From a virus, in the IMG/VR virus record IMGVR_UViG_3300044639_002535, positions 1-23,277 of that record: DNA of 23,277 bases. One strand, given 5' to 3'. Shown one piece after another: positions 14,321-19,067 of the stretch; within the stretch, counting starts at the first letter, position 1; each line of letters begins with the position of its first letter. Below the pieces are notes generated by a model. It worked only from the letters and a program-made list of their open reading frames with translations. It was not told where the DNA came from and searched no databases. The translations under genes were made by a program, and so were the position numbers.

Positions 14321-14647
14321 TAAAAAACCCCGATAATAAAATCAAAATGGAAACAGGGAGGCATCAATTCATCAAAAATTTTTTCATTTTGAAAAAAATA
14401 TCGTCTAATAGTGATAAATTCTAATCATTTTTGACGATTATGTAGAACTAATTCTAATTATATCAATCAATCTATTACTTGTGAGGTAATCCCTTATCTA
14501 CGTTAATCAACACTATAATTATGTGTGCTTTACTATCTATTGAGAATATTATATACGATGTAAAGATGTGTGATATTGTCCTAAGACTTTGTAAAGTTAG
14601 CGGAAATAAATGAGATAGTCAAGAATCTAAACGTATTTAGGTGAACA

Positions 14648-14728
14648 TAGTCGTTTGTTGTCGGATAAATATATTATTATCATTGATTCTCAATGATAAT
14701 AATTAATAGCCGTTTGTTGTCGGCTAAA
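14648..14728 (+). repeat. Duplicated hairpin element around a 13-bp inverted repeat
   Basis: A 22-base element, TAGYCGTTTGTTGTCGGMTAAA with two differences, occurs at 14648-14669 and 14707-14728. Each can fold into a short stem with the same TTTGTTGT loop (best in copy 2: TAGCCG/CGGCTA). Between them is a perfect 13-bp inverted repeat (14673-14685 / 14691-14703) with loop ATTCT. Read together it makes three hairpins in a row just before the early gene block. Confidence 0.6.
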
Positions 14729-14745
14729 CAAATACAATAATGTTT

Positions 14746-14763
14746 AGGGGCTTTATTGTCTTT
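14746..14763 (+). terminator. Recurring hairpin, copy 1 (degenerate)
   Basis: AGGGGC-loop-GTCTTT with several G-U pairs, followed by ATTAATTAA and an A-rich leader before the gene at 14786. An alternative ACAATAA/TTATTGT pairing overlaps it. Weakest member of the family. Confidence 0.3.
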
Positions 14764-14785
14764 TGTATTAATTAAATATAAAACT

Positions 14786-14950: not shown

Positions 14951-14956
14951 TAGTAT

Positions 14957-14980
14957 TCAAAGGGCTTTAATGTCCTTTGA
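14957..14980 (+). terminator. Recurring hairpin, copy 2
   Basis: TCAAAGG/CCTTTGA, 7 perfect pairs, extended by G-U and C-G, loop TTTAAT. It starts 6 bases after the stop of the small membrane gene and is followed immediately by the three-way-junction RNA candidate. Confidence 0.55.
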
Positions 14981-15044
14981 TTATAATAAACCAATGCAGT
15001 GGTTCAAGATGGTTTGATTGAGCTGAGAATTCAATCTATTATAA
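14981..15044 (+). ncRNA. Candidate three-way-junction RNA
   Basis: 64 bases without a gene. Outer stem TTATAATA (14981-14988)/TATTATAA (15037-15044); hairpin A AACCA/TGGTT (14989-15004) abuts the outer stem on one side; hairpin B GATTGA/TCAATC (15016-15036) abuts it on the other; 11 bases link A and B. It sits between two near-identical copies of the recurring hairpin, which could define its ends. AT-rich stems make this a hypothesis, though the exact stacking without gaps is notable. Confidence 0.45.
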
Positions 15045-15049
15045 TTTAG

Positions 15050-15073
15050 TCAAAGGGCTTTAGTGTCCTTTGA
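15050..15073 (+). terminator. Recurring hairpin, copy 3
   Basis: Same stem as copy 2 (TCAAAGG/CCTTTGA) with loop TTTAGT, followed by ATTATTAACCTAAAACTAAA and the start of the next gene. Copies 2 and 3 differ only in the loop. Confidence 0.55.
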
Positions 15074-15096
15074 TTATTAACCTAAAACTAAATGTT

Positions 15097-15447: not shown

Positions 15448-15702
15448 ATGAAAACTTACATTGTTCTTGGAACATATTACGGTGATTGGATTGAAAGTAT
15501 GTCAATCGATACTTTAATATTAGCAGTCTTCGATAGCTTAGAAAAAGCAGAAGATTTTAAATCAAAACAACCACCAAAAATCAAAGGTGGATTTGATAAT
15601 GAATACGAGTATGATGAAAACGGAGATGTTTGTGGCTGTAAAACAATATCACATTACGATATTGATGTTAATTACAGAATTGAAGAATTCGAAATTAATT
15701 AA
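15448..15702 (+). CDS. Hypothetical 84-aa protein
   Basis: 84 aa, acidic. It opens with a strand 'KTYIVLGTYYGDW' and a helix 'FDSLEKAEDFKSKQ', the 'VF.S.EKAE.F' pattern of small phage/bacterial proteins that monitor or bind an unknown partner; the end is beta-rich and acidic (DIDVNYRIEEFEIN). No defined domain is recognised. It lies between two strong hairpins and its leader has the TTAACTAACCTAAA sequence shared with other early genes. Confidence 0.55.
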   Translation: MKTYIVLGTYYGDWIESMSIDTLILAVFDSLEKAEDFKSKQPPKIKGGFDNEYEYDENGDVCGCKTISHYDIDVNYRIEEFEIN

Positions 15703-15734
15703 ACAAAGGGCTTAAGTGCCCTTTGTTTAATTAA
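15695..15734 (+). terminator. Recurring hairpin, copy 5 (longest)
   Basis: 17 perfect base pairs (15695-15711 with 15718-15734) around loop TTAAGT; the core AAAGGGC/GCCCTTT is the family core and the rest is AT-rich. The left arm overlaps the last codons and stop of the upstream gene; the right arm runs into the leader of the next. Confidence 0.7.
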
Positions 15735-16126: not shown

Positions 16127-16167
16127 TGCTTTGTTTTTTAGGTTTACAAAGATAGCATTGAGAGAGT

Positions 16168-16252
16168 GTCATGCATGATTCATCGTGACCACAACTGGAC
16201 AACAGAGTTTTAGGGCTTTGTTGTCCTTTGTTTTGTTACAATGTCGTAACAA
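16168..16252 (+). promoter_or_regulatory. Structured 5' leader of the 199-aa gene
   Basis: Three hairpins in order: GTCATG/CGTGAC (16168-16189, with a TCATGCATGA palindrome), GGACAAC/GTTGTCC (16197-16226; overlaps a family-like AGGGC...GTCCT hairpin) and TTGTTAC/GTAACAA (16233-16252). The last ends 16 bases before the GTG start. It may control expression or stabilise the message. Confidence 0.45.
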
Positions 16253-16268
16253 TTAAAAACTAAAACAA

Positions 16269-16868
16269 GTGAGTAATTTAAAAGCATTATTGGCGAAACG
16301 CCAATCAGGTGAGGCTAAATCCACCGTTCAATTGAATCAATCAGGTAACGTAAAAATCGTTTCCGTTGAATCAGAAGTTTCACAAAAAGGAAATGGAATG
16401 ATTGTAATGATTGTTGAAGAAGAACTTGGTTTGAAACTTCAAAAGAAAGAATTCATGAGAACTTCTCAAGTGAAATACTTAGAAGGTTACAGAAAAAAGA
16501 TGAACTTGTTATTGGAATTCAACAAAATTCCAGCACCAACTGTTCAAACTCCATTCGCTTTTGTTCTTGACGCTAATAAAGAACCGATTACCATCAACGC
16601 TGAATTAAAAGGCGAAGAGTTATCGGCTGAATTAAAGCGTACCAAAGAAGAACTTGGTTCGGATGAATTCATTACGGTTACAGACGATGCGGGTACTAAA
16701 TTCCGAGTATTGGTAGTTGTTGACGAGTCAGCAATTCCAGCTTACAACGAGGCTTATGCAAATGCATTAAAACAATGTATTGATAAAAGTTTCTATTTGG
16801 AATTGAAAGAAAAAGATTCACAAGGTTATTGGAAGACATTCTATTTACCACGTAAATCAGCAAAATAA
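16269..16868 (+). CDS. Abundant-looking 199-aa early protein, unknown function
   Basis: 199 aa from a GTG start. It begins (M)SNLKALLAKRQSG, a motif repeated at the start of the protein at 17817-18227. The body is alpha/beta with long helices 'KYLEGYRKKMNLLLEF' and 'AYNEAYANALKQCIDK' and ends in a basic 'WKTFYLPRKSAK'. Codon use is richer in GC-ending codons (AAC, GAC, TTC, GTT) than in its neighbours. It has a structured leader and three consecutive 3' structures including a terminator, so it is a stand-alone unit and likely strongly expressed. Candidates are a DNA-binding or replication accessory protein, but no fold is recognised. Confidence 0.65.
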   Translation: MSNLKALLAKRQSGEAKSTVQLNQSGNVKIVSVESEVSQKGNGMIVMIVEEELGLKLQKKEFMRTSQVKYLEGYRKKMNLLLEFNKIPAPTVQTPFAFVLDANKEPITINAELKGEELSAELKRTKEELGSDEFITVTDDAGTKFRVLVVVDESAIPAYNEAYANALKQCIDKSFYLELKEKDSQGYWKTFYLPRKSAK

Positions 16869-16972: not shown

Positions 16973-17030
16973 CGCTTACCCATAATGCTTACCCATAACG
17001 CTTACCGATAACGCTTACCGATAACGCTTA
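16973..17030. repeat. 13-bp tandem repeats (iteron-like)
   Basis: Four full units: CGCTTACCCATAA, TGCTTACCCATAA, CGCTTACCGATAA, CGCTTACCGATAA, then a partial CGCTTA. A further CGCTTAT occurs at 17066-17072. The array lies in a ~290-base gene-free stretch (16869-17161) that ends in a GC-rich segment containing GGCGCC. Tandem direct repeats of this length near replication genes resemble iterons or repeated protein-binding sites. Confidence 0.75.
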
Positions 17031-17161
17031 AAAACACAAAAGCTCTCTTGAAATGCTTTGCAAAACGCTTATCAGCCCACGTTTTTCAGTCGGGTTCTAT
17101 CAGGGGGAGTGGCGCCAGACAATGTATTTATGTAATATGTAACCAACAAAAAATCAAATAT

Positions 17162-18430: not shown

Positions 18431-18605
18431 GCTTAAATTTGTATGGATGTTGCTCACTCATATAGTAACGCCACAGGAAGAGCATGAAGGAAGGCAAATG
18501 TATAACATCTGTTTTAAGGATGGAACTACAATTGAATACGCTTACAAGGAAGAAGTTTTAGAATACATTAAAACTGGTACTTTCGAGTACAATGAAGATA
18601 TTTAA
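18423..18605 (+). CDS. Hypothetical 60-aa protein
   Basis: 60 aa. The hydrophobic beginning (MIKLKFVWMLLTHIVTP) is followed by a beta hairpin-like 'YNICFKDGTTIEYAYKEEVLEYIKTG', and the tail is acidic. It is the last gene of a three-gene overlap cluster and ends just before the structured non-coding region at 18611. Function unknown; small DNA-mimic or regulator proteins have similar size, but nothing specific is seen. Confidence 0.45.
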   Translation: MIKLKFVWMLLTHIVTPQEEHEGRQMYNICFKDGTTIEYAYKEEVLEYIKTGTFEYNEDI

Positions 18606-18610
18606 ATATT

Positions 18611-18688
18611 AAACACGTTGATTGAAGCCAGCACTAATAAAACCGAGTGCGTGAATGGATCAATATAAAGCCGGATATCAATGTGTTT
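18611..18688 (+). ncRNA. Structured RNA candidate, domain I
   Basis: Long-range stem AAACACGTTGAT (18611-18622) with ATCAATGTGTTT (18677-18688), 12 pairs including one G-U, enclosing a hairpin GCACT/AGTGC (18631-18650). TTGAT can alternatively pair with ATCAA at 18659-18663, and CACG with CGTG next to the inner hairpin, giving possible switching. A T-run follows the outer stem. It lies 5 bases after the 60-aa gene, with no coding frame. Confidence 0.5.
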
Positions 18689-18699
18689 TTTAAATTTTG

Positions 18700-18755
18700 T
18701 TTACGGTATGTCAGGCTAAACTACCATCCTGTAACCAGCGTAGTTTTATCGTAAA
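18700..18755 (+). ncRNA. Structured RNA candidate, domain II
   Basis: Nested stems TTTACG/CGTAAA (18700-18705, 18750-18755), AAACTAC/GTAGTTT (18718-18724, 18740-18746) and CTG/CAG around TAAC (18729-18738). The 5' side carries a 12-base internal bulge, the 3' side three bases. The three-level nesting is unlikely to be trivial in a 56-base stretch. Confidence 0.5.
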
Positions 18756-18761
18756 TAAATC

Positions 18762-18785
18762 AAGGATCGGGGCAACCCGGTCCTT
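18762..18785 (+). terminator. Recurring hairpin family, GNRA-loop copy
   Basis: 10 pairs (one G-U) AAGGATCGGG/CCCGGTCCTT around a GCAA tetraloop, followed by TACTAATTAAAAACAT and the ATG at 18802. It shares position and leader with the GGGC/GCCC hairpins. Confidence 0.65.
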
Positions 18786-18801
18786 TACTAATTAAAAACA
18801 T

Positions 18802-18978
18802 ATGAATCAATTAATGAAATTTGCGCAAGAAGCAATTACAAACAATCCTGAATACAAATCAAGGATAAATGAATTATTCCAATTATGCTTAGATGAAATT
18901 GATGAAGGTGGTTCAGAAGAACATGAGATTCAATTATGCTATTCTTCAATTTATGAATTAATAGAAAAACATTCATAA
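18802..18978 (+). CDS. Hypothetical 58-aa acidic protein
   Basis: 58 aa, MNQLMKFAQEAITNNPEYKS... with a strongly acidic second half (CLDEIDEGGSEEHEI) and a helical end. Its stop joins the next ATG (TAATG), supporting translation. It is the first gene behind the structured RNA stretch at 18611-18785. No family is recognised; if that RNA regulates in cis, this gene and the coupled genes after it are the targets. Confidence 0.45.
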   Translation: MNQLMKFAQEAITNNPEYKSRINELFQLCLDEIDEGGSEEHEIQLCYSSIYELIEKHS

Positions 18979-19067
18979 TGAACGATTATCAACGCAGTTT
19001 ATTTTGGACAAACTTCAATTGGAATTTGTACAAAGCATATTTACGAATTAAAAACCAACAGTCATGA
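18978..19067 (+). CDS. 29-aa aromatic peptide
   Basis: MNDYQRSLFWTNFNWNLYKA followed by YLRIKNQQS; eight of the first 21 residues are aromatic. It is joined by TAATG to the preceding gene and by ATGA to the following one, the same coupling style as the neighbours, which is the main support for its reality. Function unknown. Confidence 0.35.
   Translation: MNDYQRSLFWTNFNWNLYKAYLRIKNQQS

Follow-up and report, generated by a model that had tools for sequence, protein, structure and literature searches.

A run of overlapping genes on the plus strand of an uncultured virus contig is followed by a 196-nt non-coding gap, which raises the question of whether this gap acts as RNA and, if so, whether as one RNA or as several. 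The contig, record IMGVR_UViG_3300044639_002535, was analyzed over its whole 23,277 bases, referred to here as the window. Its minus strand carries the genes for the terminase, the major capsid protein and, between those two, a 748-aa protein that had no Pfam match and is probably the portal, judged by position. Small early genes occupy the plus strand, which also encodes a DNA polymerase sliding clamp and a RadC-like protein. The terminase has distant kin in crAss-like phages and Flavobacterium phages (best matches about 24-26% identity), and the host probably belongs to the Bacteroidota. In the region separating the two gene arms (14647-14733), the palindromic repeat TAGYCGTTTGTTGTCGGMTAAA occurs twice, 59 nt apart, and this could be a promoter or origin region. 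Four tandem copies of a 13-bp repeat, CGCTTACCNATAA, lie in an iteron-like array at 16973-17037, inside a 292-nt gap.

The gap before ORF 18802 and its three modules

The two small ORFs that flank the gap and the features within it are listed in Table 1. A coding explanation was rejected: the only ORFs in the gap are two chance ones, 35 and 32 aa long, that start with GTG/TTG, and the original prediction that it contains no coding frame was upheld. A tRNA or tmRNA identity was also rejected, as ARAGORN returned no match. The downstream 58-aa ORF carries no metabolic annotation. A small unlisted ORF at 18977-19066, MNDYQRSLFWTNFNWNLYKAYLRIKNQQS, overlaps its stop and is partly present in the closest relative.

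Table 1. Features of the gap and the genes on either side (window coordinates)
Feature	Position	Strand	Remarks
Upstream ORF, 60 aa	18423-18605	+	identity 95-97% in L001, 73% in L002
Left direct repeat TTTAAAT, domain 1 edge	18601-18607	+	single TTTAAAT in relative
Domain 1, optional module	18611-18688	+	fold compared with shuffles; absent from closest relative (G001/L001)
Right direct repeat TTTAAAT	18689-18695	+	second copy
Domain 2, unclassified folded RNA (candidate)	18696-18759	+	z -3.24; kept in L001
Domain 3, GC-rich 10-bp hairpin with GCAA loop	18762-18785	+	stem 18762-18771/18776-18785; z -5.66
AT-rich leader TACTAATTAAAAACAT before ATG	18786-18801	+	similar AT-rich leaders trail other hairpins
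Downstream ORF, 58 aa, function unassigned	18802-18978	+	60% identity in relative; weak phrog_32903 match, E 0.001

For 18600-18800, the plus-strand fold has an energy of -52.1 kcal/mol (z -4.31), and one of 200 shuffled sequences folded equally well, while the minus-strand fold was ordinary (z -1.04). Several other gaps in the window match or beat this fold. All helices named in the original prediction could be read directly in the sequence. The advantage over shuffled controls extended to domains 2 and 3, for each of which none of 200 shuffles was equally good, and did not extend to domain 1 alone, which was equalled by 13 of 200 shuffles (z -1.64; minus strand, -1.54). The structure of the gap is real, lies on the plus strand and is modular. 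It consists of three separable parts rather than one RNA, because the closest relative has domains 2 and 3 intact but no domain 1, and because domain 3 is a hairpin of a recurring type. The view of the gap as a single chain of nested helices was thus abandoned.

Domain 1 is closed by a 12-bp outer stem with one G-U pair (18611-18622/18677-18688). Its inner hairpin, GCACT/AGTGC (18631-18635/18646-18650), is ringed by alternative pairings of similar energy. Domain 2 is built on a 13-bp stem, P1 (18696-18708/18747-18759), which encloses P2 (18718-18724/18740-18746) and a CTG/CAG pairing (18729-18731/18736-18738); its minus-strand fold has a z of -0.42. A pseudoknot between CAGG (18712-18715) and CCTG (18728-18731), read by eye, is possible. 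Between domain 3 and the ATG at 18802 lie 16 nt.

Closest relative and searches for homologues

The closest relative is the contig of IMGVR_UViG_3300037493_004106 (G001, under which L001, L006 and L045 fall), which is about 96% identical around the gap. It lacks window bases from about 18611 to 18688, and TTTAAAT, present at both edges of domain 1 in the window, occurs once there. The absence of domain 1 is apparently an indel between these repeats. The same facts could describe a small palindromic, MITE-like DNA insertion with TTTAAAT as its target duplication: the ends of domain 1 are the inverted repeats AAACACGTTGAT/ATCAATGTGTTT, direct repeats stand at 18601 and 18689, and the element is cleanly absent from the relative. 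However, TTTAAAT is frequent in this AT-rich window (17 copies), neither the window nor its relatives hold a second copy of the element, and loss of the element from the relative, by deletion between the repeats, accounts for the data equally, so that we consider an insertion quite improbable. The search for a second copy of domain 1 was also negative in viral contigs, the phage collection and the species genomes; a 17-mer from the domain gave four matches, all by chance.

Domain 2, domain 3 and the leader up to the ATG are shared by the window and this one relative as a unit of 102 nt that is 99% identical and retains all 31 pairs. The identity, 98-100% ahead of the ATG at 18802, falls to 68% beyond it and returns to 96% past about 18950. 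Two substitutions fall in P1, each a one-sided G-U/A-U exchange, and none of the changes between these two sequences is double compensatory. Both exchanges keep the pair only when read as plus-strand RNA; they appear to favor an RNA on that strand and are too few to prove selection. The pairings therefore persist in the relative through two pair-preserving changes, and the covariation check gave no compensatory pair. Conservation of domain 2 (98%) is not above that of its flanks (92-100%), so selection on domain 2 is not established. In L002 and the distant L028-L033, which carry a homologous upstream gene, a different sequence follows that gene, and hence no covariation could be drawn from them. 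The sequence at this place in L002 is itself structured (z -2.2). Near the homologues of the upstream ORF, L002:3190-3430 and L029:3600-3720 are structured non-coding stretches in which TTACAACTGAGTGCARAGGGG is common to two distant phages; these could be a further phage RNA.

The gap had no match in Rfam release 15 at the gathering score, nor had its relatives, and at E 10 the gap matched nothing except, by chance, a nematode snoRNA. A domain-2 motif pattern gave seven matches in viral contigs, one in the true relative and six in a single coding-like stretch found in unrelated contigs; two more matches to a looser pattern were both due to chance. Four matches to an 18-mer in the species-genome collection all looked coding, and none had the stems. 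Searches of the phage database by blastn returned nothing or AT-rich chance matches. Among the relatives, the covariance model R1 found the two known copies and the reverse complement of the palindromic hairpin, and in 397 genomes of one bacterial family, which may not be the host's, it found nothing. Homologues of domain 2 beyond the one close relative were thus absent from viral contigs, the phage collection and species genomes. Domain 2 would be a leader RNA of no known class, with copies in two genomes.

These results bear on two readings of the gap. As a riboswitch or metabolite-sensing leader, it would be suitably placed before an ATG, and the alternative pairings in domain 1 could serve switching; but the Rfam search found no such class even at E 10, domain 1 is dispensable, the downstream gene is not metabolic, and the structure occurs in one close relative instead of recurring before different genes or species. 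The riboswitch reading of the gap is unlikely, and we give it very little credence. The original prediction, "riboswitch-like or new phage RNA", thus kept its second half, for domain 2, which has a plus-strand fold and no Rfam match, and lost its first; its statement that no named riboswitch class fits was borne out by Rfam. The other reading is a gene for a trans-acting small RNA formed by domain 2, with its 3' end possibly supplied by domain 3. A compact, self-contained fold with its own 3' hairpin, a conserved block adjoining a diverging gene and the other structured gap elements of the same arm would fit such a gene. Against it, matches to sigma-70-like promoters were at chance level in a scan that does not cover the promoters of this phage group, the conserved block stops, as expected of a leader, where the coding sequence begins, and the searches found no wider family. 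We regard a small RNA gene as rather unlikely.

Boundary hairpins and other elements of the early arm

Compact hairpins were found in most of the larger plus-strand gene gaps, at 14744, 14957, 15047, 15401, 15695, 16107, 16211, 16894, 18762, 20816 and 22734. Besides domain 3 there are about ten. Most have GGGCUUUA-N2-GYCCUUU in common, usually as RGGGCUUUA-N2-GYCCUUUR, and are followed by an AT-rich leader that runs to a start codon. Eight of the 11 hairpins are more stable as plus-strand RNA, a bias that agrees with their G-U pairs, and pooled copies gave a weak covariation measure. Domain 3 differs from the others in loop and core, with GCAA in place of CUUUA. By position, compact shape and leader, and not by core sequence, it would belong to this set. 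The identity to relatives breaks at or near hairpins at about six of nine places, counted by eye: these are 14748-14776, 15046-15052, 15445, 15700-15703, 18802 and ~20810, and the breaks away from hairpins are at ~15850/16093, 19040-19058 and 19350/19585.

Compact GC-rich hairpins in gaps are also the mark of intrinsic terminators between phage genes. In a terminator reading, domain 1 (a stem followed by TTTTTTAAATTTT) and domain 3 would end the upstream operon, with domain 2 incidental. Terminator-like sites are enriched in the early arm (14 found against 2.5 expected), and in the distant L028-L030 and L033 a classic hairpin with a T run follows the homologous gene. However, the tail of domain 3 is TTTACTAATT, and the terminator scan did not pick out 18762-18785 on the plus strand. 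In most of the phage's hairpins the stem runs into no more than TTTG or TTTA, a T tract so short that, compared with the terminators of L028-L030, they are non-canonical. Moreover, the loop of domain 1 is long and interrupted, and the domain is missing in the relative. A terminator region is possible, and on balance we think it unlikely.

A structured gap element was also found at 16140-16205, between two boundary hairpins. Its stem is GTGTCATG/CGTGACCAC in the window and GTAGCATA/TATGCTCAC in L006 and L016. Of the eight pairs, three show double compensatory changes and one a pair-preserving change, and the sequence on both sides is nearly identical. The covariation score was reached by 24 of 500 shuffles, and the comparison amounts to two versions, so that its support, though good, comes from one divergence. 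On this comparison, 16140-16205 would be the best-supported RNA of the early arm. Because of its three double compensatory changes, at least one gap RNA of the early arm appears to be under structural selection.

Two further structures were observed in the early arm. The boundary hairpin AGGGCTTTGTTGTCCT at 16212-16227 has a competitor in the long hairpin GGACAACAGAG/CTTTGTTGTCC at 16197-16226, and the two could possibly form a two-state switch before the gene at 16269. The non-coding stretch 14985-15050, between two similar boundary hairpins, has ATTATAAT/ATTATAAT as its outer stem, with two hairpins inside; the region 14955-15080 folds with a z of -4.7. It is conceivable that the unrelated small structured RNAs of the arm (domains 1 and 2, 14985-15050 and 16140-16205) are exchangeable cassettes between common boundary hairpins, some of them with host or phage genes as targets in trans, an idea that we hold to be doubtful.

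Proposed role of the gap and likeness to known systems

The gap most likely acts as RNA in cis. The reading that we prefer, and to which we give about an even chance, is that it forms a composite, modular and exchangeable untranslated leader, acting in cis, of the small early gene at 18802. Its chief rivals are the terminator and small RNA gene readings. In the proposed leader, the boundary hairpin may punctuate the early transcript by pausing or partially terminating upstream transcription; alternatively, it may protect and mark the following message at its 5' end. Domain 2, carried along as a compact folded leader, would adjust the expression of the next gene. The hairpins are repeated copies of similar sequence and may for that reason also provide the homology for recombination, through which genes and short RNA modules, domain 1 among them, could be swapped in and out between hairpins.

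In the account given in PMC4503421 (citing Arbiol 2010 and Comeau 2014), promoter early stem-loops (PeSLs) of T4-like phages are reported to mediate gene shuffling, and an early promoter is part of their definition. The boundary hairpins resemble PeSL shuffling cassettes as described there: stem-loops likewise recur between small early genes, and the identity of relatives appears often to break on them, by the count made by eye. Measured against that account, the present hairpins differ in that the scan for sigma-70-like promoters gave matches at chance level, the phage group is unrelated to the T4-like phages, the start codon closely trails the stem-loop, and extra structured RNA lies alongside.

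Candidate structured RNA motifs from comparative genomics (e.g., PMC2864571 and PMC8040213) are comparable in being structured intergenic RNAs with no function assigned. The present RNA differs in that it occurs in two genomes only, below the evidence used for calling motifs, and in its absence from Rfam 15. A phage counterpart is also at hand when small structured RNAs amid small early genes are considered. T4 has the stable RNAs C and D, small structured RNAs whose role is unassigned. Unlike these, the RNA described here has no tRNAs nearby, is probably a leader and is known from its sequence alone.

At present, the gap provides one sound structural observation, to which the role proposed above is a plausible addition. 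If the gap elements are functional RNAs, they would add a group of uncharacterized phage RNAs outside Rfam. They would also show how Bacteroidota-type phages may organize and exchange their early genes, in an arrangement that would work without a classic promoter and terminator in each gap.
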